Source: Bdellovibrio sp. 22V (lineage in GTDB: Bacteria > Bdellovibrionota > Bdellovibrionia > Bdellovibrionales > Bdellovibrionaceae). From it: 64,000 nt of DNA. The stretch's first letter is position 1, and each line of letters begins with the position of its first letter. The translations under genes were made by a program, and so were the position numbers. Positions 3,454-50,449 of the stretch are shown piece after piece. The DNA lies in the NCBI RefSeq assembly GCF_030169785.1, contig NZ_CP125854.1:2852001-2916000 (forward strand), in the 5' to 3' direction. Below the pieces are notes generated by a model. That model saw only the letters and a program-made list of their open reading frames with translations, ran no database searches and was not told the DNA's origin.

Positions 3454-5493
3454 TTAGAAGCCGTCTCCGTCGCCATCGCAGCCGACATTTTCGACAGCGC
3501 CGACGTTGTTAATACCGCCGTTAAGGCATTGGTAAAGCGATGTGATACCGCAAGATGGTGATGCCAGATAAACTTGCCCGTGCTGGTAACCACCGCAAGA
3601 AACCCCTGCAGCAACAGCCACGTTATTCACTGCTGTAATACGACCTTGAGCATCGACGTAGAATTGCGGAACGTATTGACCGTTACCATACCACCCAGCT
3701 CCAACACCTGTGTTCGAAAGGCTGAGTGAGACGTCACCAGCTCCGCCGCCGCCCCAAAGACCCGTACCTGCCCAAACCGCCGTGATGTCACCACCCGAGT
3801 TGTTATCGGCTTGCGGCACCCATTGACCGCCATCCCACTTAAGAACTTGGCCGACACCAGGGCCCACGTTAGCAACATAGCGTCCTTGGATTCTTTGTAC
3901 AGACGTAGAACTTTGTCCGCCAGTCACATCTCCTGAAAGAGCGCCGTAAAAGCCCGCCGCATTTCCAGGAATATTGCCAGTCACCTTAGCGCCAGAGACA
4001 GACGCGATTTTTGCGTCGGTCACGTTGCCGTCAGCGATTTTGGCCGTCGTCACGTTTGCATCCGCAATTTTTGCCGTTGTCACTGCCAAGTTTGCGATCT
4101 TAGAAGTTGTTACATTCGAATCAAGAATTTTTGCCGTCGTGACGGCGTTGTCGGCAATCTTTGCCGTGGTCACATTGCCATCGGCAATTTTAGCAGTTGT
4201 CACGTTGCTGTCAGCGATCTTCGCTGTCGTCACATTACCGTCGGCGATTTTAGCCGTCGTCACGTTACTGTCTGCGATCTTTGCCGTCGTGACATTGGCG
4301 TCAGCGATTTTATCCGTAGTGACGTTGCCATCAGCAATCTTCGACGTCGTAATATTGGCATCCAAGATTTTCGCTGTTGTCACGGCATTATTAGCTAAAT
4401 CCGCAGTGACGATTGTGCCATCCAGGATTTTTACTGAGGTGATCGCTGAATCGACAATCTTGTTGGTGCTGATCGCGCCATTGGCGATCTTATTAAATGT
4501 AATCGCACCATCGGCAATTTTTGAAGTGGTGACGGAGTTGTTCATCAGCTTATCTGATGTGACGGCCTCATCGCCTAATTTCGTAGTCGTGATCGCGTTA
4601 TCGGCGATTTTACCACCTGTCACGGCGCCATTTGAAATATCCGCTGTTGTAATCGAACCATCGACAATCTTATCAGAACCAACACTGGAATTATTCGCAG
4701 TCGTTACATCCTGCCATTGGCCGCCGACAGAAACTTGCACGGTTTGTGTCGTTTCATCATATCTCATCAAACCGTCGCGGGCCGGTGTTGCGGAACCATC
4801 CGACGAAGGAATACCGATCGTTCCCGTCGCCGGCGCGCTCGTTGACGGATTCAACATAGAAACCAATCCATCAAAGTTTGCAGGCAGTAAAAGACTTTCG
4901 AGTTTTTCCTGCGTGATGTTTGCAGACTTCATCAGGAAGTCCGCGGCCTTTTTGCCTTCCAAGGCAACGGCATTTTCAGCTTCAAGCGAGTAAGGCACAG
5001 AACGCAGATTAAAGTCAGGAGACAGTGCAACTGTCTCACTGCCGACAGTAAAGCTTACGCGCACTTTACGGCTGTCACCAGCTTGCGGAGCATAACTATT
5101 ATAAGAACTCGCACACTTTGTGAGTCCTGTGATCGCACCGGAATTTTTTAAGACTTTGTTTAAAGGAAGACTGTGGCCTACGGCAACGGAAGTCGCACCG
5201 GCTTCATTCGCGCCAATTACAAAGTTGATCATCCCTTTACTATTGGTCATGTTCACCGTGCGATTTTCTTCAAAAAGCACACAGGCTTCAGGACCGGGCG
5301 AAAGAACTTTGATATTAAAAGAGACGCTGCTGTCTTCTAACGGCAAACCGTCGGGCTGAATAATCCGACCTTGAACCGTGAGGCCTTGGGGAACTTCCGT
5401 AAACGAAACCTGCGCACTCGCAGTACTCGCCACGGCAAGAAGAGCTGTCATCACAACACTATGAAGAGCTATTTTTCTTTTTGTGCCTACCAT
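3454..5493 (-). CDS. Secreted trimeric-fibre-like adhesin with decapeptide-repeat shaft
   Basis: 679 residues from the chosen start (ATG at 5493, AAGGAA about 8 nt upstream; the 45 nt of open frame before it lacks a ribosome site). A Sec signal peptide (hydrophobic stretch ending ASTASAQ) precedes a globular N-terminal region of about 250 residues. Then come 23 decapeptides of the form (N/A)(V/I)TTxKIxDx, and a C-terminal region with the phage-tail-fibre-like pattern GTGL-GGG--GDVSLSLSNTGV and VDAQGRITAV, and a Cys-containing tip. This architecture resembles phage tail fibres and the chimeric 'mosaic adhesive trimer' fibres described in Bdellovibrio prey recognition. The assignment to that family is inferred. 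It heads an operon with a pentapeptide and an HTTM gene, and has a FliA-type promoter candidate upstream. Confidence 0.75.
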   Translation of the reverse strand: MVGTKRKIALHSVVMTALLAVASTASAQVSFTEVPQGLTVQGRIIQPDGLPLEDSSVSFNIKVLSPGPEACVLFEENRTVNMTNSKGMINFVIGANEAGATSVAVGHSLPLNKVLKNSGAITGLTKCASSYNSYAPQAGDSRKVRVSFTVGSETVALSPDFNLRSVPYSLEAENAVALEGKKAADFLMKSANITQEKLESLLLPANFDGLVSMLNPSTSAPATGTIGIPSSDGSATPARDGLMRYDETTQTVQVSVGGQWQDVTTANNSSVGSDKIVDGSITTADISNGAVTGGKIADNAITTTKLGDEAVTSDKLMNNSVTTSKIADGAITFNKIANGAISTNKIVDSAITSVKILDGTIVTADLANNAVTTAKILDANITTSKIADGNVTTDKIADANVTTAKIADSNVTTAKIADGNVTTAKIADSNVTTAKIADGNVTTAKIADNAVTTAKILDSNVTTSKIANLAVTTAKIADANVTTAKIADGNVTDAKIASVSGAKVTGNIPGNAAGFYGALSGDVTGGQSSTSVQRIQGRYVANVGPGVGQVLKWDGGQWVPQADNNSGGDITAVWAGTGLWGGGGAGDVSLSLSNTGVGAGWYGNGQYVPQFYVDAQGRITAVNNVAVAAGVSCGGYQHGQVYLASPSCGITSLYQCLNGGINNVGAVENVGCDGDGDGF
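3997..4686 (-). repeat. 23 tandem 30-bp units encoding the fibre shaft
   Basis: Successive 30-bp units encode decapeptides with the invariant core T-x-x-K-I-x-D/N. The units nearest the C-terminal half are almost identical (NVTTAKIADG / NVTTAKIADS alternating), while the first eight or so have diverged. Recent unit duplication in the distal shaft is the simplest reading. The repeats make a long antisense open frame on the plus strand, which is not a gene. Confidence 0.9.
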
Positions 5494-5560
5494 AAGTCGT
5501 TCCTTTTTTAACAATACGTTCCGGGAAAAAGGGGACACTTTTTAATTTCTGATACCTATC

Positions 5561-15574: not shown

Positions 15575-16351
15575 TTAAGGGTCATCCGGAATCGTTTTTG
15601 TGACCGGGACGAAATTGACGTTAAGTAAAAACACTTCCTTTTTAGAGACGTTGGCTCGTCCCAGATACTCCTCGCACTCGCGAACAAACGAAAGAGATTT
15701 GGCCAGGATATAATCTCTATCCTCTTCCGAGGCCGCCACAAGCAAATAACCACACGAAATCTTCTCTAAAGGTAAACTGCTTACGGAATTACCAACAATT
15801 TTGAGAAATTCGTTGTGAGTTCGAAGCATAGATTCACGGCTGCTGTCGTCGGCGAACTTAATCTGGTTACTATGGGTAGGAATGAGTTTGTTAAACTGAT
15901 TTCGTTTAATGGCTTCGATCTTAAGCAAATCTTCAAGGGCTTGCGTCGTCTCTGCAATTGAAATTCCCAGTCTTTTTGCTATCCAAGCCGGGTCTTCACA
16001 AAAGTTCTCGGTCTGCATAAGCTCCAAAATGGCGATGTGAAACCAGCTTGATAGTGGCGCTCTCAAAGCCGAAGTGTCCACGTGAAATGTCGAGAAGCTG
16101 GTGTAATTTTGATTGTCCAAAAGTTGAAGCAGTTCTTCGTTTTGGGCGAAGGCAGCTTTTAGTTTCGCCATAGTCTTCGCCGAGATTCGTCTTTTTCCTT
16201 TGAGAATTTCATTGAGAGTTGTGCTAGTCAGGCCGATTTGATTTGCGAAGGCCCTTTGGGAGAAGCGGGGGTTTTTTTGTTTCTTGTGTTCAATAATACG
16301 AGCAAGAAACTCTTTAATGTCATACTGAAGTATTTTACCAACGTTGCTCAT
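15575..16351 (-). CDS. TIGR02147/DUF4423 transcriptional regulator A
   Basis: 258 residues. The family, expanded in Bdellovibrio and Fibrobacter, joins an N-terminal Cro/CI-like helix-turn-helix to a DUF4423 region. Here the HTH lies at about 28-72 (NPRFSQRAFANQIGL, then TLNEILKGKRRIS). A winged-helix-like middle part (about 100-150: WIAKRLGISIAETTQALEDLL) and a C-terminal domain ending VFLLNVNFVPVTK follow. Two paralogues lie within 2.5 kb. A perfect palindrome at 16437-16459 lies 86 nt upstream, so auto- or cross-regulation is plausible. Targets are not known. Confidence 0.88.
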   Translation of the reverse strand: MSNVGKILQYDIKEFLARIIEHKKQKNPRFSQRAFANQIGLTSTTLNEILKGKRRISAKTMAKLKAAFAQNEELLQLLDNQNYTSFSTFHVDTSALRAPLSSWFHIAILELMQTENFCEDPAWIAKRLGISIAETTQALEDLLKIEAIKRNQFNKLIPTHSNQIKFADDSSRESMLRTHNEFLKIVGNSVSSLPLEKISCGYLLVAASEEDRDYILAKSLSFVRECEEYLGRANVSKKEVFLLNVNFVPVTKTIPDDP

Positions 16352-16436: not shown

Positions 16437-16459
16437 GTGTTCTGATTTAATCAGAACAC
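16437..16459. promoter_or_regulatory. Palindromic operator candidate 1 (between KH gene and regulator A)
   Basis: A perfect 11-bp inverted repeat around a single centre base; the 19-bp core is GTTCTGATTTAATCAGAAC. It is upstream of regulator A and 14 bp past the KH gene stop. On the minus strand an A4T6 tract follows, so it could alternatively work as a weak terminator for the KH gene. Confidence 0.65.
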
Positions 16460-21806: not shown

Positions 21807-21827
21807 TGTTCTATATTATCCAGAACA
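21807..21827. promoter_or_regulatory. Palindromic operator candidate 2 (sulfatase-prepilin spacer)
   Basis: The 19-bp core GTTCTATATTATCCAGAAC has 6-bp arms with flanking T and A, and one arm change from the GTTCTG...CAGAAC consensus. It lies about 75 bp upstream of the sulfatase-like ATG. Confidence 0.55.
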
Positions 21828-21867: not shown

Positions 21868-21886
21868 GTTCTGAATTATTCAGAAC
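21868..21886. promoter_or_regulatory. Palindromic operator candidate 3 (upstream of prepilin A)
   Basis: GTTCTGAATTATTCAGAAC is a perfect 9-bp inverted repeat around one central base. It lies 86 bp upstream of the prepilin A start. A sigma-28-like GTCGATAA occurs at 21951-21958, but with no good -35. Confidence 0.65.
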
Positions 21887-21972: not shown

Positions 21973-22773
21973 ATGAATGATCGAGGGTTTTCACTCGTAC
22001 AGGCACTTGTGGTTCTTGGAGTGATGAGCTTGATCAATCTCGGCACCATTACAGTGATGCAGAGAAACAACCGCACCAATCATGAAATCAACATGAAAGC
22101 CAATGTCTTGGCAATGCGCCAGAATATCGTGGCACTTATAGGAAATCAAAACTCTTGGGCACAAACTTATGCCGTGAATTTCAGTATGATGTGTCGCTCC
22201 CCAGGGCAAACGTATTGCAATCCGAACTCAACGCAAGTCACACCTATTAAACTTATGGATTCAGGAGGAAATGTCGTTGTCGATACAGTTCCGACAGCGG
22301 GCTTTACATTGCAAGGAGAACCCTGCAATCAGTATTCGCCCACGGGAAACGACGCTTGTCCGCTGCGGGTTGAGGTTTTTTGGCGCGCAGGGTGTACGCC
22401 AGCCACTTGTTCGAATGCGGTCGTCGCTTCAGGACGGATTCTCGCTGAAGAGTTCGTTTCGCTTAGATTCACGTACTCGCCGTCTTCTTCGGAGAGAAAG
22501 TTTTCCTTTAATTCGTTAAATTATAATCTTGTGGAACAAAGCAGGATGCGTCTGCAAAACAATGCATCTCCGTCAGTTATCTGTGGAGATCAAGGCAAGA
22601 TTTACGTGGGCACGGGACGAACATTCCGAGGTTACTCTTCCGATTCTCTAGGCTGTATTGATTACGCCGCGTTTTTTGGTGATAAGGGCGACACGGGAGC
22701 TATGGGGCCTACGGGACCTATGGGCCCAATGGGGCCGATGGGACCGGCGGGGGCAAGTGTTACATGTCCATAA
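21973..22773 (+). CDS. Type IV prepilin-like protein A with collagen-like tail
   Basis: 266 residues. The N-terminus is a class-III (PilD-type) leader MNDRG|FSLVQ followed by a hydrophobic helix (ALVVLGVMSLINLGTI); the usual Glu at mature position 5 is Gln here. A Cys-rich globular domain (about 50-235) is paralogous to the next gene (shared GxPCxxY...PCxxxxxVFW and GKIYVGTGRTF/PYIFIGFGKTF). The C-terminus is nine perfect Gly-X-Y triplets (22678-22758) ending in VTCP. GGGG precedes the ATG (agagaggggaact). The stop overlaps gene B by 10 nt. A minor pilin or pseudopilin displaying a short collagen-like triple helix is inferred. Confidence 0.85.
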   Translation: MNDRGFSLVQALVVLGVMSLINLGTITVMQRNNRTNHEINMKANVLAMRQNIVALIGNQNSWAQTYAVNFSMMCRSPGQTYCNPNSTQVTPIKLMDSGGNVVVDTVPTAGFTLQGEPCNQYSPTGNDACPLRVEVFWRAGCTPATCSNAVVASGRILAEEFVSLRFTYSPSSSERKFSFNSLNYNLVEQSRMRLQNNASPSVICGDQGKIYVGTGRTFRGYSSDSLGCIDYAAFFGDKGDTGAMGPTGPMGPMGPMGPAGASVTCP

Positions 22774-23828
22774 AGAACCGATCTGGATTTTCTTTAGTCG
22801 AATCGCTTGTGGGACTTTTTATTTTAACGGTTTCCGCTGGGATTATGCTGAGTATCGCCAAGCTGCAGTTTTACAGTCAGAAAGAAAACGTGGATTATGC
22901 TTCCATAGTTTCTTTGCGCGAATCTATTATTGCGACAGTAGCCAGCCAAGAAGCGTGGGATAAAACCAAATCTCTGAATCCGGGAATGGCTTGTTCCCTG
23001 ACTTTTCCTTCCACATGCGCTGACAATCAAATCCGTGAAGTAAATATTTACCGCAGTGATGGCAGCTTGTATGTCGGCAGTTCAAATCCAAGATATGGTT
23101 TTACGGCTGACGGGAAACCTTGCGCGACTTACGGCTCTGCGAATTCTCCCTGCCAAATCAAGGCGCGTGTTTTCTGGAAGAATGTTTGCGTAGCCACATC
23201 CGCGCAAGGCTGCCGATACCCGAGTGATCAGCTGAGTGTTTTATTTTATTCAAGACACGAGAGCTTTAAAAAATATGCGGACGCACAATTTCGCTTACGC
23301 CGTTTTGATGTTTTATCAATGAACCGACACAGTTTCGGCGTCAATAATTCACCCGTTGCGAGCTGCTTGGCAAAAGGTCCTTACATATTCATTGGATTTG
23401 GGAAAACCTTTAATGCTCCCAGCGGAGGCGTTGCCAGAGCAGACGCCGATGGTTGCGTGAACATCAGCTTTTTTAAAGGGGCAAGGGGAGATACGGGACC
23501 ACGAGGACCGATGGGACCGAGAGGACCGCAAGGACCGCCGGGCCCTCCGGGTGTGATATACACGGTGGCGGGTCCACCTTCACCTCCACCATGTACTGCG
23601 TTTGGTTGTCCACCGGCACCGACGCCAGTTCCGACACCAACACCAACTCCAACGCGACCGCCTGGTAAATGGATTTGCCCCGGTAACGATCAGAATAATC
23701 CCAACGAATGGCTTCCATATCCTGAAGATATGCGCCTTTTCCCCTCTCTTTATAGTCAAATTTGTGGCGGAGGACTCGGGGGAGGCGAAGGTGGTGATGG
23801 CGGCGCTGGTGGCGGAGCCGGAAGTTAA
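22764..23828 (+). CDS. Type IV prepilin-like protein B with collagen-like, Pro-Thr and Gly-rich tail
   Basis: 354 residues. The leader MSIKNRSG|FSLVE has the canonical Glu5 and is followed by a hydrophobic helix (SLVGLFILTVSAGIMLSI). The body is a clear paralogue of protein A. Residues 239-262 (23478-23549) are eight Gly-X-Y triplets (GAR GDT GPR GPM GPR GPQ GPP GPP). These are followed by a Pro/Thr-rich stalk (PAPTPVPTPTPTPTRPP), a short WLPYPED-containing segment and a Gly-rich tail. It starts inside gene A (ATG 22764, 10-nt overlap), so translation is coupled. An exposed fibre-like extension on a pilus tip or pseudopilus is inferred. Confidence 0.85.
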   Translation: MSIKNRSGFSLVESLVGLFILTVSAGIMLSIAKLQFYSQKENVDYASIVSLRESIIATVASQEAWDKTKSLNPGMACSLTFPSTCADNQIREVNIYRSDGSLYVGSSNPRYGFTADGKPCATYGSANSPCQIKARVFWKNVCVATSAQGCRYPSDQLSVLFYSRHESFKKYADAQFRLRRFDVLSMNRHSFGVNNSPVASCLAKGPYIFIGFGKTFNAPSGGVARADADGCVNISFFKGARGDTGPRGPMGPRGPQGPPGPPGVIYTVAGPPSPPPCTAFGCPPAPTPVPTPTPTPTRPPGKWICPGNDQNNPNEWLPYPEDMRLFPSLYSQICGGGLGGGEGGDGGAGGGAGS

Positions 23829-23861: not shown

Positions 23862-23882
23862 CGTTCTGGATTATTCAGAACG
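23862..23882. promoter_or_regulatory. Palindromic operator candidate 4 (upstream of Cys-rich lipoprotein)
   Basis: The 19-bp core is GTTCTGGATTATTCAGAAC, with arms that are inverted repeats except for one pair and a further C/G pair outside. It sits 34 bp past the prepilin B stop and 65 bp before the next start, so it could serve either as an operator or as a weak terminator; T-run support is poor. Confidence 0.6.
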
Positions 23883-23946
23883 CTATTTTGCCAAATTATT
23901 CAAATGCTCGACTTCAGTGACCGATACGTTAGTACAGGGGGAAGTT

Positions 23947-25350
23947 ATGCAGATTTTCAAAAAGTCTAAGGCGTTGCTTTTTTCTTCACTCATATCCTCA
24001 GGCGTTCTTGTAACGGTTGTGGCTTTTCAAAACTGCTCGCCTCCTATGCAATTTGCACTTCCCGAAGAACAACTGGAACCTGTCGGCGCCATTGATCCCG
24101 AACAAATCGCTTCGACATGTTCTTTTAATGGTGTGATTTATCAGGAAGGGCAAACTGTCATTGCCTACGAAACCTCATCGGGAACTGCCTGTCGATCTGA
24201 GATCAGAGTTTGTACAAATGGGGCTTTTACCGGCTCGTATCGTTTTGCATCTTGTACTCCCGGATCGTTAAAGAGCTGTCTTTTTAACGGACAAACTATT
24301 CTGCATTCCCAGTCTGTCGTTGCCTATCAAAACTCCACCGTTCCCTATGGTGGGAGCTGTGCATTTGAACAACGCCGATGTCAAGACGGCGTTTTATCAG
24401 GATCGTACGCATACGGTTCTTGTGCCATCGGTGGGGCGGCTAGTTGCTTGTTTAATGGCGCGACAATTAAGCACGGAAGTACGGTAACAGCGTTTCAATC
24501 TTCATCTGCGCCTTTCGGAAACTCATGTAGGTCCGAAGTGCGCAGCTGTAATAACGGTTTGTTGACGGGAACTTATTCCTATTCTTCTTGTAGCGTGGGG
24601 CAGGCAAGCAGTTGTCTCTTCAACGGAGCAACCATTCCTCATGGGCAAACTGTAACAGCCTATTTAACGGCCACGGTTGCATCAGGCAGTTCGTGTTCTT
24701 CGCAAGTGCGGTCTTGTAACAATGGAGTTTTAAGCGGCTCTTATGGATATTCTAATTGTGCTCCTGCACCGGCGCCAACTCCGCAAGCGCCTACGTTTAG
24801 TTGCAATAAAACTGCGTGGACTTGCGGTGAACCCATCATCTGTACAGCGTCAGGCTCTGACAGTAATTTGAAGACGTGTGATTACGCGACTGGAAATTGT
24901 TATCCTCTTATGGGAAGACCGGATTGGACTTACTTGGGTAACGGTAAATTTTCTTACTATAAAATCAATACCAATTCTGGCGGTTACTTCGAGTCTGTCT
25001 CATGGGGAGCGTTGGATTCAAATGGACTTCGTTCCTCTCAAGTGAACGGAACTATCAAAACATGCATGCCGAGATTTAGTTGCAGCAAATCCTATTATGC
25101 CTGCGGAGAAACCGTCTCCTGCTCGGCTTCTTTTGAAGGCGATAGCGGTTTGCAAGTTTGTGCGCCGGGAGTTGGGTGCTTCTCTGCCTTGGGACGTGAA
25201 AACTGGAGTTATCAAGGAAACGGATCGTTTTATTATTCGATGGTTAATAACAACTTGAACACTTCGGATGCGACAATTTATTGGTATTCCAGAAACTCTC
25301 AAGGATATGATTCTCCAACAACAGTTGTACGTTTTGGAGCATGCAAATAA
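23947..25350 (+). CDS. Cys-rich tandem-repeat lipoprotein
   Basis: 467 residues from the ATG at 23947 (GGGGAAG upstream; the longer frame from 23917 lacks a ribosome site). The signal ends VVAFQNC (Cys30), a lipobox form frequent in Bdellovibrio. Four repeats of about 55 residues follow (about 50-270), each with C-x-FNG-x-I--G--V-A(Y/F)----------C-----R-C-NG-L-G-Y-Y--C. Then come two repeats of about 95 residues (FSCNKTAWTCGEPIICTASG... / FSCSKSYYACGETVSCSASF...). All repeats are Cys-rich and so probably disulphide-bonded outside the cytoplasm. It follows the prepilin pair and precedes a truncated prepilin. Function is unknown; a surface or pilus-associated role is inferred. Confidence 0.78.
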   Translation: MQIFKKSKALLFSSLISSGVLVTVVAFQNCSPPMQFALPEEQLEPVGAIDPEQIASTCSFNGVIYQEGQTVIAYETSSGTACRSEIRVCTNGAFTGSYRFASCTPGSLKSCLFNGQTILHSQSVVAYQNSTVPYGGSCAFEQRRCQDGVLSGSYAYGSCAIGGAASCLFNGATIKHGSTVTAFQSSSAPFGNSCRSEVRSCNNGLLTGTYSYSSCSVGQASSCLFNGATIPHGQTVTAYLTATVASGSSCSSQVRSCNNGVLSGSYGYSNCAPAPAPTPQAPTFSCNKTAWTCGEPIICTASGSDSNLKTCDYATGNCYPLMGRPDWTYLGNGKFSYYKINTNSGGYFESVSWGALDSNGLRSSQVNGTIKTCMPRFSCSKSYYACGETVSCSASFEGDSGLQVCAPGVGCFSALGRENWSYQGNGSFYYSMVNNNLNTSDATIYWYSRNSQGYDSPTTVVRFGACK

Positions 25351-45917: not shown

Positions 45918-46916
45918 TTACAGACCTGCCGTCTGTACGTCTTTTTTCTTCTCTACTTTTTTAACTTTAAAATAAATCATTCGTTTAAGTACGGAATCGC
46001 GCTTGAAGCTTAACTCCGCAACCTTATCCGCCATTAAAAATGGTTCACTCCACTGGCCGTTCTCATAAACCGACTTATAGAGATTGGCTGGCGTCGTCTG
46101 CAGGCGCGTGTCCTCGTATTTTTTAATAAAGTACTTCACGATTTTCACAGCACGTAACCGTACAATCGGTTGACCACCACCAATGGAAGGCAGCGTTCTC
46201 AAAAACGCATCCGCGGAGTTGATGTCCGCCTTCGTTTCGGGATGCTTGATATTAAGTAGACTCTTCATCACAGGATCAATCGCTAGAGCCTGCCCCTGAA
46301 CTGCGCCCACAAAAATCGGACTTCGCGGCGCGACCGTCATATTGACGGAACCATTAGATTCCACGGGACGCAAACGAGCCGGCGTATCCAACATCAATGC
46401 TTTGCCGGGCACCCAGAAATTTTTTCGATAGGTCTCCACAGATTTATTTCTATTCAAACTTTGAAACTCTAACGTCGCCGACGTATTGAAATCCGCAGGA
46501 GGATTGCCGATTAAATACGCCATCGGAGGGTCATAGGTCATAATTGCACCCGCCGTCGTATCCTGAGTCATAATAAAAAATTCTGTTCGACCACCCAACT
46601 TTAAGCTGACGTTGCGCTCAGCTTCCGTCGTCAAAATATTCGCAGGAATATCAGGATAGTAATCGAAGAACGGGCGTCCTTCGTCATCCTTCACAGTTAA
46701 ATTATTATAAGAGGGATCCACATTGTTGAGATCTTGAAAGATGATTCGCTCAGCTAAAGTGGTGTCGATCGAATCTTCAAGCTTCTCTTTTAGATTCGCT
46801 TGATCTTTCGTCACCATAAGCTGCGTCGCCACCATAACAGATGTCAGCAAGGCCACCAGGCCCACGCCAACAACAACTTCGACTGCTGTGAAACCTTTTC
46901 TATTTAAAGTCATCAT
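45918..46916 (-). CDS. Type IV prepilin-like protein D
   Basis: 332 residues. The leader MMTLNRKG|FTAVE has Glu at mature position 5, followed by a hydrophobic helix (VVVGVGLVALLTSVMVATQ). The large C-terminal domain (about 60-330) has no Gly-X-Y repeats and few Cys. Its start overlaps the stop of the preceding prepilin gene (ATGA). A minor pilin or pseudopilin is likely. Confidence 0.85.
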   Translation of the reverse strand: MMTLNRKGFTAVEVVVGVGLVALLTSVMVATQLMVTKDQANLKEKLEDSIDTTLAERIIFQDLNNVDPSYNNLTVKDDEGRPFFDYYPDIPANILTTEAERNVSLKLGGRTEFFIMTQDTTAGAIMTYDPPMAYLIGNPPADFNTSATLEFQSLNRNKSVETYRKNFWVPGKALMLDTPARLRPVESNGSVNMTVAPRSPIFVGAVQGQALAIDPVMKSLLNIKHPETKADINSADAFLRTLPSIGGGQPIVRLRAVKIVKYFIKKYEDTRLQTTPANLYKSVYENGQWSEPFLMADKVAELSFKRDSVLKRMIYFKVKKVEKKKDVQTAGL

Positions 46917-47353
46917 TTTGCACTCACCACAAAAATATAATCTTTGGGTTCAGACCACGTTTTATGTGTCATACGCAACGTCACTTTATAAAGTCCCCGA
47001 TAGTCGCCATAAGGCTGAATCGTGTAACCATACGTTCCGGCGCACTCCTTACATTCACTGCGAGGGAGAACTTTACCTACGTCCCACGCCATCGGCAGAT
47101 TTTCCAGCGCTAAGGCATTGGATGTGCCTTCATCTTTGTAGTTAAAGTTAATTTGATAGTTTTCGACGCCAGCTTTAATATTCTCTGCGATATCGTTGAC
47201 TTGTTTTTCTGTTGAAGAAAAATTCACCGTTTTCGCCGTCGTCTTACGAAGTTGCACCATACCGCCCGTAAACGCGAACCCGACGATGGTGATCAAACCA
47301 AGTCCCACAAGGGCTTCTATGATTGTTTGACCTTTATTATTTCCTATTCTCAT
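46913..47353 (-). CDS. Type IV prepilin-like protein E
   Basis: 146 residues. The leader MRIGNNKG|QTIIE has Glu5 and a hydrophobic helix (ALVGLGLITIVGFAFTGGMV); residue +1 is Gln instead of Phe. A short globular part contains a C-x2-C (SECKECAG). The start shares one base with the stop of the 980-residue protein upstream (TAATG), so reinitiation is likely. A minor pilin or pseudopilin is inferred. Confidence 0.82.
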   Translation of the reverse strand: MRIGNNKGQTIIEALVGLGLITIVGFAFTGGMVQLRKTTAKTVNFSSTEKQVNDIAENIKAGVENYQINFNYKDEGTSNALALENLPMAWDVGKVLPRSECKECAGTYGYTIQPYGDYRGLYKVTLRMTHKTWSEPKDYIFVVSAK

Positions 47354-50292
47354 TAGATGCCTCCTTCACGCGATTGCTCGACCACGAAGAAGCGAACAAG
47401 ACGACGCTTACAAGAAGTATTTGAAGCTCCTGGCAACATCCCGCAGTCAGGATCGACAGCAGTCCATTGGAACGGATCCGCTTTCGCACGAAGACTTATT
47501 GTATTACATGTCATACGATCAGCCACTTGCTGTACCGATGGAATCGGATGCCAGATCGGATCTTTAGGGGCCGCATCGCAACTCACACCCGTTTGCGTGG
47601 AAAGAATCGCCGGATTTCCCGCTTTACGCAACTCCCGCGTCGCTTGCGGGTGATAGATGGAACTCCAAGTAATACCGGCTTTAATAGCTTCTTTATCAAT
47701 GCGCGCTTTTGATACGATAAACGTACCGATGATTCTTAATGGAGTCGTGCGTTTTTCAATTTCCAACTCATCGCAGGCAAAGAAACCCGTGATGAAATCA
47801 GAACTGCTTTTAATAACGCATTTTCCAACAATCGAATACACCATGAATGTGGCATTCGCACGCGTGCGATTTTCCAGAATAAGTTCTTTTACTCCCGGAA
47901 TCACACCTGGCTGAGTGCCTCCGGCAAAATTCCAAGAAGTGCGTGTACTTGGCGCGAAGTTCGTCGCCCATCCAGTTCCACCGAAGGATTGAGAACTTTG
48001 CGCATTACGTGCCTTTTCACACTCTTCTTCCAAGGCACCATAGTCCGTGTTGTCTTCTGCCAAGTTCAAGGCTGAAGTGTTCGGAGTTCTTGATACGTTG
48101 TACGGAGCTTCTAAACGCGTCTGAGCCGCATTGAAAGAGAAATTTAAGTAACCCAATAATTTTTTATTCGCCGGATCTGTAATTGATGATGAACGGTAGT
48201 ACGTACCGTCGTAAGCCTGAATCCCCACGACTGGAGCCACCAGATTTCCGTTTTTATCAATCAGATTTCGGGCTCTCTCAACGGTCACGTCAAGATTCAA
48301 CTTATCTTGCAAATAATAACTATATTTACGCACAAGCGACGTTTTGAATTCGATCACTGGCGGATTTGCAACAATGTTCAGATACGAGTTATAAGCCGTT
48401 CTTTTTTCGTCGTACGTTTTAGATGTCGAATTAACGACTGTTTGCTGTTCCGGCAACTTGTTGTTGTTATAGTTACTAATAGCGCTTTGCAAACTCGAAA
48501 TTTCCGCCTTCAGTGCCGCAATCACATCAGGATCTTGATACATGGAAGGATCCGCAGTAGGCGAAGGGCTTGGCGACGCCGTCGGTGTCGGGGAAGCCTC
48601 TGCAACAATCTGGCTTTCCGTTTCTTTAGTCTCTTTACCGCCACCGCTTGGTGACGCTGTTGGAGACGGCGATGGCGAAGGAGACGGCGAAGCTTTTGGT
48701 TTTACAGGCTTAGCTTCCTCTTCTTTCAATTTGTTTTGTGCAATTGAAAGATCTTTGCGAAGATCATCCACGTCTTTAAGCAGCTTATCATAACTTGAAA
48801 CAGCAGCATCATAGGCCGTTTTAGCCGTTGTCACTGCTTTTTCTAAGCTGCTTTTGAGAGCTGCGGATCCAACCTCAGGAACTAGTGTGATCGTACCTGA
48901 TCTAGGAAGCTGGGCTTCCACCCAACGATCACCCAAATCCAGACGAATTTTTACCATCGCATCATTATAGTCAGAGGCGTCTACATCAATTGTTCCACTT
49001 CCCCAGCCTATGGTGTTTGAAGTCAAACGATTGGTTTGGCTCGAGAAATAGTTTCCCCGTGTTAGGAAAAGACGATAGTTGAATTCGCTTTCGTCATTTA
49101 CTGACGTGTATTCCGAATCTAAAAGATTCGCTGCCAGTTCTGATCTATAAAGATTTTCTTTCGAAGCCTTTTGCAAACTCAATTGAATACACCGCGACAT
49201 CAAGTCCGTGCTCGGCTGAGTGGCATTAAGAATTCCCGCAAAGTATTGCAGTCCCAAATCCAAACCGCCGTCATTCTCAATACCTTTAAGGAATCCACCG
49301 AACGTACGATTGTCAGACCAGAAACGATCCGTCATACCACCGGCCGTTCGAGGCGCAAAGTTTTCACCTTTAGAGACAACCCATCCGTTTCCTAAATAAA
49401 CACGGTCGGCGAAAGTGACACCCGCATAAGGCAACGCACTCACGTCGCTTCCCTCAGGCGCTACGTCTTGTGGCAAGTGAATATTGCGATTCACGAAAAC
49501 CGGGCTTTGAAAAATAAGCCCTTGGCTTTTACCCAATTCTTTTTTGCTGTCAAATTTATGCAACGAAATGTCGCCCGGATCCATCTTCGCATCCCACTGT
49601 GTATCCAGATGCAAATCGTTAGGCACAACCAACGCAAAGGAACCCACCTCACGCGGATAAATGACGATTTGTGATTCAAGAGTCAGCTTCGTCGAGCCCA
49701 CTTGCAAAGGGTCTACGATGTCACGGTTGGCTTTAAGAGAGATTTTGACTTTTAAATAAACTTCTTTACCGGCTTTCGGCAAATACGCACCTTCGTCGCG
49801 AGAAATCTCCACAGCAATCCCATCCACCTTCAGAGGATTGCCATCCATTCCTTTTACCATTTTAAGCTGGCGAAGAACCGGAAACATGGGATGTTTTTCC
49901 GTAGCTGCGGAAACGCGAAGGTAGCGATACATTCTTTGCATGCGAATGTCTGGATCGTTATTGCCCAAGCTACGAATAAATTGTTCTGTTTCTTTGGACA
50001 TAATGATGCGCTCGACGTTCCCGTCGTGTTTAAGACCGCATCTTTCGGGAGTATCGTTCAACAACATATCGTCATTCGTGAAGCAGTACTTCTGACGAAT
50101 TCCGAAAATCACATAATCCATAGCACTGTTGAGCGCAAAACGAAGGTTGACCAAGTTGGCCGTTTTCCCTACTTGCTCCTTCTGTCCGATCACGTAGTTC
50201 GTGAGGAAGTAAAAAGAAGTACTCATCACGGCGGTGGCAGCCAAGATTTGCAACAAAACATTACCTGCTGAGTTACGTACCGACTTAAGCAT
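47353..50292 (-). CDS. Giant prepilin-like surface protein
   Basis: 979 residues from the ATG at 50292 (AAGGAA 6 nt upstream; the longer frame lacks support). The N-terminus MLKSVRNSAG|NVLLQ and the hydrophobic stretch ILAATAVMSTSFYFL look like a prepilin leader and helix, but mature residue 5 is Gln. Residues about 510-560 form a predicted coiled coil, followed by a Ser/Pro-rich linker (PSPSPSPSPT type, + strand about 48540-48720) and a large C-terminal region with Cys pairs. It heads the operon with prepilins E and D and the EF-hand protein, and has a FliA-type promoter candidate. A large minor pilin or tip adhesin is inferred. Confidence 0.72.
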   Translation of the reverse strand: MLKSVRNSAGNVLLQILAATAVMSTSFYFLTNYVIGQKEQVGKTANLVNLRFALNSAMDYVIFGIRQKYCFTNDDMLLNDTPERCGLKHDGNVERIIMSKETEQFIRSLGNNDPDIRMQRMYRYLRVSAATEKHPMFPVLRQLKMVKGMDGNPLKVDGIAVEISRDEGAYLPKAGKEVYLKVKISLKANRDIVDPLQVGSTKLTLESQIVIYPREVGSFALVVPNDLHLDTQWDAKMDPGDISLHKFDSKKELGKSQGLIFQSPVFVNRNIHLPQDVAPEGSDVSALPYAGVTFADRVYLGNGWVVSKGENFAPRTAGGMTDRFWSDNRTFGGFLKGIENDGGLDLGLQYFAGILNATQPSTDLMSRCIQLSLQKASKENLYRSELAANLLDSEYTSVNDESEFNYRLFLTRGNYFSSQTNRLTSNTIGWGSGTIDVDASDYNDAMVKIRLDLGDRWVEAQLPRSGTITLVPEVGSAALKSSLEKAVTTAKTAYDAAVSSYDKLLKDVDDLRKDLSIAQNKLKEEEAKPVKPKASPSPSPSPSPTASPSGGGKETKETESQIVAEASPTPTASPSPSPTADPSMYQDPDVIAALKAEISSLQSAISNYNNNKLPEQQTVVNSTSKTYDEKRTAYNSYLNIVANPPVIEFKTSLVRKYSYYLQDKLNLDVTVERARNLIDKNGNLVAPVVGIQAYDGTYYRSSSITDPANKKLLGYLNFSFNAAQTRLEAPYNVSRTPNTSALNLAEDNTDYGALEEECEKARNAQSSQSFGGTGWATNFAPSTRTSWNFAGGTQPGVIPGVKELILENRTRANATFMVYSIVGKCVIKSSSDFITGFFACDELEIEKRTTPLRIIGTFIVSKARIDKEAIKAGITWSSIYHPQATRELRKAGNPAILSTQTGVSCDAAPKDPIWHPIPSVQQVADRMTCNTISLRAKADPFQWTAVDPDCGMLPGASNTSCKRRLVRFFVVEQSREGGI

Positions 50293-50320
50293 AAATGTTT
50301 CCTTACTTTTCCTGGTTTTC

Positions 50321-50348
50321 TTATCGGCAGAAAAGGACGAAAACTTGC
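50321..50348 (-). promoter_or_regulatory. Candidate FliA (sigma-28)-type promoter of the second prepilin operon
   Basis: Read on the minus strand: GCAAGTTT (matching TAAAGTTT in 6/8), 12 nt, then a perfect GCCGATAA (50321-50328), 28 nt before the start at 50292. Counted from the first -35 tetramer the spacer is again 16 nt, as in the two other candidates. Confidence 0.5.
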
Positions 50349-50449
50349 ACAAAATCGAGATTATAAATAATTTGAAATTTAACAGCGTCTCAGAGTGAGA
50401 AAGTGAGGCGCCGTGAAAAACTCATATCTCAAGATGGGACCTTGGCATC

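Follow-up and report, generated by a model that had tools for sequence, protein, structure and literature searches.

Type IV pilins can be modular: 264 architectures have been described, S74 tails among them (PMC8179133), and CofB and TcpB have been published as trimeric pilins located at the pilus tip (PMC8179133, PMC9565799). The preliminary description of the DNA studied here knew of no collagen-like domains at the end of type IV pilin subunits; as these modular architectures and trimers show, extra modules at the C-terminus of such pilins are in themselves nothing unheard-of. Pilins without the glutamate at mature position 5 (Glu5) are placed first at filament tips (PMC9934059), and Tips of the KilLMN type, described in Myxococcus, are also predicted in Bdellovibrio (PMC12075869). 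Prey contact in B. bacteriovorus involves MAT fibres acting as adhesins, and relatives of Peptidase_S74 in phages and in MAT fibres govern trimer formation (PMC10769870). Prokaryotic collagen-like proteins have been described as homotrimers (PMC8968730). In the open literature, the supplementary architecture list of PMC8179133 falling outside the search, we found no report of collagen tails on pilins. This suggests that the new part of the locus described below is the collagen segment carried by modular minor pilins, and that a heterotrimeric collagen would be the surprise.

The window, i.e., the whole stretch of 64,000 nt that was analyzed, comes from a complete genome of 3.6 Mb and contains two overlapping prepilin genes, A and B. 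Both ORFs, and the PilD-type leader motifs first described for them, were confirmed (a slash marks the end of the leader):

21973..22773, forward strand: prepilin A, 266 aa; leader of 5 residues, MNDRG/FSLVQ, Glu5 absent; Cys-rich body; 9 Gly-X-Y triplets; C-terminus VTCP.
22764..23828, forward strand: prepilin B, 354 aa; leader MSIKNRSG/FSLVE, with Glu5; Cys-rich body, collagen segment, Pro/Thr and Gly-rich tail.

The 3′ end of A overlaps the start of B by 10 bp, a good ribosome site lies upstream of A, and the Cys-rich bodies are indeed homologous, with 34% identity and the majority of Cys common to both. The class III signal, in which Gly closes the leader and some 20 hydrophobic residues come next, is recognized in B by the Pfam model N_methyl (23.3 bits against a cut-off of 21.2). 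In A it is assigned by motif and by homology to B and relatives; the curated model gave no match, and the sole Pfam match of A is to Collagen, at 19.8 bits and below the cut-off of 27.2. The host genome also encodes a Peptidase_A24, i.e., a prepilin peptidase. Predicted models of the two proteins have a helix followed by strands, at mean pLDDT values of 31 and 42 that, coming from alignments of two rows only, are too poor to read, so that the empty Foldseek result obtained with these models carries no meaning. Judged from their sequences, both proteins belong to the modular minor type IV (pseudo)pilins, an already known kind of protein (PMC8179133).

A prepilin-like leader could also serve for membrane insertion only, in which case A and B would be membrane-anchored surface trimers rather than filament subunits. 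In favour of this, no pilus gene cluster lies close to the pair (that of the T2SS is at 3268 kb), and A misses the N_methyl model. However, B passes it, a profile of B bodies gives N-terminal matches to solved type IV pilins, the leader and helix are kept across the order, and the Glu5 pattern described below is meaningful for filament assembly only. We consider simple membrane anchoring very improbable. A and B were also rejected as core T2SS pseudopilins, the gspE-G cluster with its gspH/I/J-like pilins sitting elsewhere in the genome; they may use the T2SS machine. A second prepilin-like gene group is found on the reverse strand of the window at 45918-46916 and 47353-50352 (leader G/FTAVE, N_methyl just under the cut-off), and a search for a link between this group and the collagen pair revealed no relationship.

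The C-terminal parts of the two proteins are laid out as follows:

22567..22677, forward strand: pre-collagen module of A (SPSVICGDQGKIYVGTGRTFRGYSSDSLGCIDYAAFF), delimited by alignment; two invariant Cys close the module.
22678..22758, forward strand: collagen-like segment of A, 9 triplets; Pfam Collagen 19.8 bits, below cut-off.
22759..22770, forward strand: C-terminal VTCP of A; Cys directly after the putative helix in 6/6 A-type proteins.
23349..23477, forward strand: pre-collagen module of B, delimited by alignment.
23478..23558, forward strand: collagen-like segment of B, 8 strict triplets (to 23549), 9 including GVI.
23559..23825, forward strand: variable tail of B, with 4 Cys, a Pro/Thr stalk and a Gly-rich end; the tail at this position is different in every B.

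The perfect Gly-X-Y tails reported at the outset, nine triplets in A and eight in B, are thus present, as are the extra Pro-Thr stalk and Gly-rich tail of B. One mechanical counting rule, Gly at every third position, gives nine for A and nine for B, the ninth of B being the in-phase GVI. The triplets of A read, in order, GDK GDT GAM GPT GPM GPM GPM GPA GAS, followed by VTCP and the stop. Across all six frames of the 64-kb window, these two exceed every other run with Gly at every third position, the next being an 8-mer in another frame over the collagen DNA of A; with Gly at 7.5%, about 5e-8 runs of nine would be expected by chance in 620 aa. Helices of 6–11 triplets without hydroxyproline are weak alone and would need the pilin heads and Cys for their stability, which counts against the mixed helix proposed below. 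Elsewhere in the same genome, at about 125 kb (L072 3448-4545), a secreted protein of 365 aa consists largely of Gly-Asn-Asn triplets (NGNNGNNGN) and contains repeated SSIVGVAGIVG blocks; it matches Pfam Collagen but is not a prepilin.

We searched 369 genomes of the phylum using A, an A-type alignment, the pre-collagen/collagen stretch of A and a second body type as queries. Cassettes combining prepilin and collagen were found in seven of them: five A/B pairs in tandem, a trio and a few single genes. Tandem pairs are present in G000 (the genome of the window), G018 (two), G029 and G268, the last from a different family of the order, and the trio of prepilin+collagen genes is in G227, from another family; G268 also has an orphan A, G008 and G030 have single prepilin+collagen genes, and G003 has an A-type gene cut by the contig end. 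In all members the Gly-X-Y runs are uninterrupted and comprise 6–11 triplets. Their Pfam Collagen matches all stay below the cut-off.

Within pairs, the A and B genes overlap or are direct neighbours in every case. Most genomes of the same genus are without A/B genes, and this patchy distribution indicates that the set is accessory, so that the link to prey invasion, if understood as a requirement, is not supported. Viral contigs and plasmids yielded no A/B set, and a single-protein scan for more distant relatives found only unrelated collagen proteins. The A-type pre-collagen module is also grafted onto a different pilin body in G030, which implies that module and collagen behave as a unit; by analogy with the non-collagenous domains of animal collagens (PMC8968730), the module may start the zipper. 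Tails following the collagen are variable and include DUF4214-like ones.

Most related pilins end in other C-terminal modules, namely Peptidase_S74 fibre ends, RCC1, LamG-type lectin or thrombospondin repeats (TSP1); the last three are seen as pilin tails at loci L134, L135 and L127. The window's own genome encodes, at about 1397 kb (L043 2713-4449, reverse strand), a prepilin with N_methyl above the cut-off that ends in tail-fibre repeats and Peptidase_S74, a trimeric fibre end of phage-like type. Three tandem prepilins in G351 (L128 4246-9995) each end in Peptidase_S74 and a coiled coil, with D, E and E at position 5. Because an S74-ended prepilin is found in the same genome as the collagen-tailed pilins, trimerization through the pilin tail would, by analogy with fibre proteins, be a recurring trait of the lineage, achieved in at least two ways.

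Alternatively, the Gly-X-Y tails could be single extended spacers of polyproline-II-like form that push the tail of B off the filament. They are short, lack hydroxyproline and score under the Pfam Collagen cut-off, all of which would suit a spacer, and so would a second copy in G030 (L137 8958-10000), where the collagen run is down to two triplets and Gly-Ser and Pro-Gly-Pro-Gln repeats take its place. But A ends directly after the segment, and would thus carry a spacer to nothing; neither the strict Gly phase nor the equal counts of partner chains described next are needed by a spacer; and relatives have trimerizing S74 tails at the same place. We judge a spacer function clearly unlikely.

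The case for a helix built from both chains comes from the number of triplets. When Gly is counted at every third position, starting from the conserved F-x-G, the partners in each of the six multi-gene sets have the same number: 9/9 in the window, 10/10 and 8/8 in the two pairs of G018, 10/10 in G029, 11/11 in G268 and 6/6/6 in G227. For this small sample (n = 6) the exact permutation probability of equal numbers is p = 2/720. The prediction of equal length was fixed before the sets of G268 and G227 turned up. Recent copying does not explain the equality in the five pairs, because the A bodies and the B bodies fall into separate clades (support 99/96) and the X-Y identity within pairs is low, at 0.12–0.39, overlapping the values between pairs. 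On the same grounds, gene conversion is unsupported as the cause for the five pairs; for the G227 trio it is possible. The clades indicate that A and B are the products of an ancient duplication and had already diverged when these genera and families separated, and a parallel change in length after such a duplication would be best explained by chains that lie side by side in one helix. Charge complementarity between the A and B tails, judged by eye, showed no consistent pattern.

The G227 trio (L177 4766-8347, reverse strand) consists of overlapping genes for three different chains with Pro-rich linkers and C-terminal coiled coils. Only one of the three chains has a full S74-type chaperone domain, as if the chains assemble together. 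The stretch after the collagen is nearly identical across the chains, so the equal length may be inherited in this set, which makes it weaker evidence for parallel change. The original proposal of three subunits held by one triple helix thus gains real support from the equal tail lengths in six sets and from a trio of distinct chains, while the helix itself is what we infer from them.

Equal lengths could also be found if A and B formed separate A3 and B3 homotrimers, two modular pilins each with its own collagen helix, and if a shared geometric need or common descent of the tails kept them alike. This would agree with the homotrimers described for prokaryotic collagen-like proteins (PMC8968730), and the single-gene versions in G008 and G030 have very regular GPA/GPQ repeats that suit a homotrimer. 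However, the lengths have moved in step in five pairs despite the old divergence of A and B, the two genes of a pair always overlap or lie side by side, and only one G227 chain keeps the S74-type domain. Separate homotrimers therefore seem unlikely to us, and we lean, from sequence comparison, toward pilins joined by a mixed-chain collagen helix.

The residue at mature position 5 bears on the composition of such a mixed helix. Glu is observed in 5/5 B proteins and 0/6 A proteins (Q, S, N, Q, Q and Q in the latter), and the G227 trio has one chain without Glu and two with it. This is a feature of tip complexes of the GspIJK, KilLMN or CofB type, in which the first subunit is without Glu5 and its partners have it; here A is without and B is with. 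Together with the tip-first placement of pilins lacking Glu5, the pattern points to one A and two B, and the stoichiometry is probably A1B2. The Cys after the putative helix in every A, for which B has no conserved partner, would fit A2B with an A-A disulphide better than A1B2. Many other three-prepilin cassettes of the phylum (L126, L127, L129, L140 and others) seem, by eye, to have one chain without Glu5 and two with it; the pattern is not universal, G233 and G025 being exceptions.

In the mechanism we propose, the type IV filament machinery of the cell, be it T4aP, the T2SS pseudopilus or another, would remove the leaders of A and B and insert both proteins, so that one A and two B, if the stoichiometry is right, would come to lie side by side at the filament tip. 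The disulphide-closed pre-collagen modules would gather the three C-termini, and the matched Gly-X-Y segments would close up into a short triple helix, whose length for nine triplets at the standard rise would be about 8 nm. The A chain would stop at the helix with a Cys cap, and B would run on into its variable tail, held out as the binding part. Expression would be tied, via a palindromic operator, to a TIGR02147 regulator, to lipoprotein C and to MAT-type fibres. The elements in the window are:

15575..16351, reverse strand: TIGR02147-family HTH protein (74.2 bits, cut-off 50), candidate regulator of the palindrome regulon.
16439..16457, no strand: operator-like palindrome, 87 bp before the TIGR02147 regulator gene.
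21808..21826, no strand: operator-like palindrome GTTCTATATTATCCAGAAC, 146 bp before A.
21868..21886, no strand: operator-like palindrome GTTCTGAATTATTCAGAAC, 86 bp before A.
23863..23881, no strand: operator-like palindrome, 35 or 65 bp before lipoprotein C; may serve as the A-B terminator too.
23917..25350, forward strand: lipoprotein-like protein C, with Cys-rich repeats; start GTG 23917 or, more likely, ATG 23947.

The palindrome GTTCTRN7YAGAAC has exactly nine sites in the 3.6-Mb genome, all in two clusters. In the second cluster, at 1207984-1228947, the genes preceded by sites encode a TIGR02147-like protein, a lipoprotein, a MAT-type fibre (assigned by resemblance) and two proteins judged by eye to be Ser/Thr-kinase-like; another prepilin pair lies within this region (1208–1229 kb). 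G018 has the same palindrome before A and before a MAT-type fibre; it is absent elsewhere among the loci that were compared. The sites probably represent an adhesion regulon, for which they are candidates. Since A and B share the palindrome with MAT-type fibres, an adhesive role for them is likely by association, an indirect form of support. A further MAT-like fibre protein in the window, at 3454-5538 on the reverse strand, has many TTAKIAD repeats and is without a palindrome.

In G018 the repeat of protein C also occurs in the B tail, and in G003 it is seen in a protein beside A. As proof that lipoprotein C belongs with B this domain fusion is weakened, the repeat being present in 28/66 genomes of the family; within the window's own genome it is found only at this locus. 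The common operator-like palindrome appears to be the better link of lipoprotein C to A and B. Lipoprotein-like N-termini with a non-standard [FY]QNC or TNC lipobox are seen in protein C (window 23917-25350) and at L035 8219 and 9207, L036 7425 and 9384, L038 7116 and several positions in L039.

Taken as a whole, the picture would be that of a natural bacterial heterotrimeric collagen, in which co-evolving, length-matched Gly-X-Y pilin chains share one mixed helix and form the exchangeable adhesive tip of a type IV filament, controlled together with MAT-type fibres. We put this forward tentatively, at slightly less than even odds. If true, it would provide a minimal heterotrimeric bacterial collagen, of a kind that a review says bacteria do not make, in which chain selection and control of the register are natural. 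It would also give a clear rule, equal length and the Glu5 pattern, for the trimer assembly of accessory pilin sets, and would define for a predatory lineage an adhesive tip and an operator that are open to test, a single regulon covering both pilins and MAT-type fibres. Every new genome allows an immediate check of the equal-length rule.

Among known systems, PilB and PilC of S. sanguinis (PMC8179133, PMC9934059) resemble A and B in that a C-terminal module is grafted onto an N-terminal pilin module and is likely displayed at the tip, and in the Glu5-less partner coming first; in A and B, however, the graft is a collagen segment, divided over two genes and matched in length. In CofB and TcpB (PMC8179133, PMC9565799), C-terminal parts hold pilins as a trimer at the pilus tip, as we propose here, but these are homotrimers with beta-repeat and beta-sandwich domains, without collagen or mixed chains. 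KilLMN of the Kil/Tad system of Myxococcus (PMC12075869) is alike by description, being a predator pilus with interchangeable heterotrimeric minor-pilin tips that expose variable domains; it differs in belonging to the Tad family and in joining its three pilins via folded domains, with collagen unmentioned. The collagen-like adhesins Scl1/SclA and Lcl are likewise surface adhesins with Gly-X-Y segments, and profile matches to the SclA, SclB and Lcl models are weak; these adhesins have long homotrimeric helices and LPXTG or other anchors, and none is described as a prepilin. Finally, the chimeric MAT fibres of Bdellovibrio (PMC10769870) are trimeric surface fibres with exchangeable tips and apparently the same operator-like palindrome, but they are beta-helical and start with a signal peptide and a MAT N-domain, whereas A and B have prepilin leaders and pilin-type bodies.
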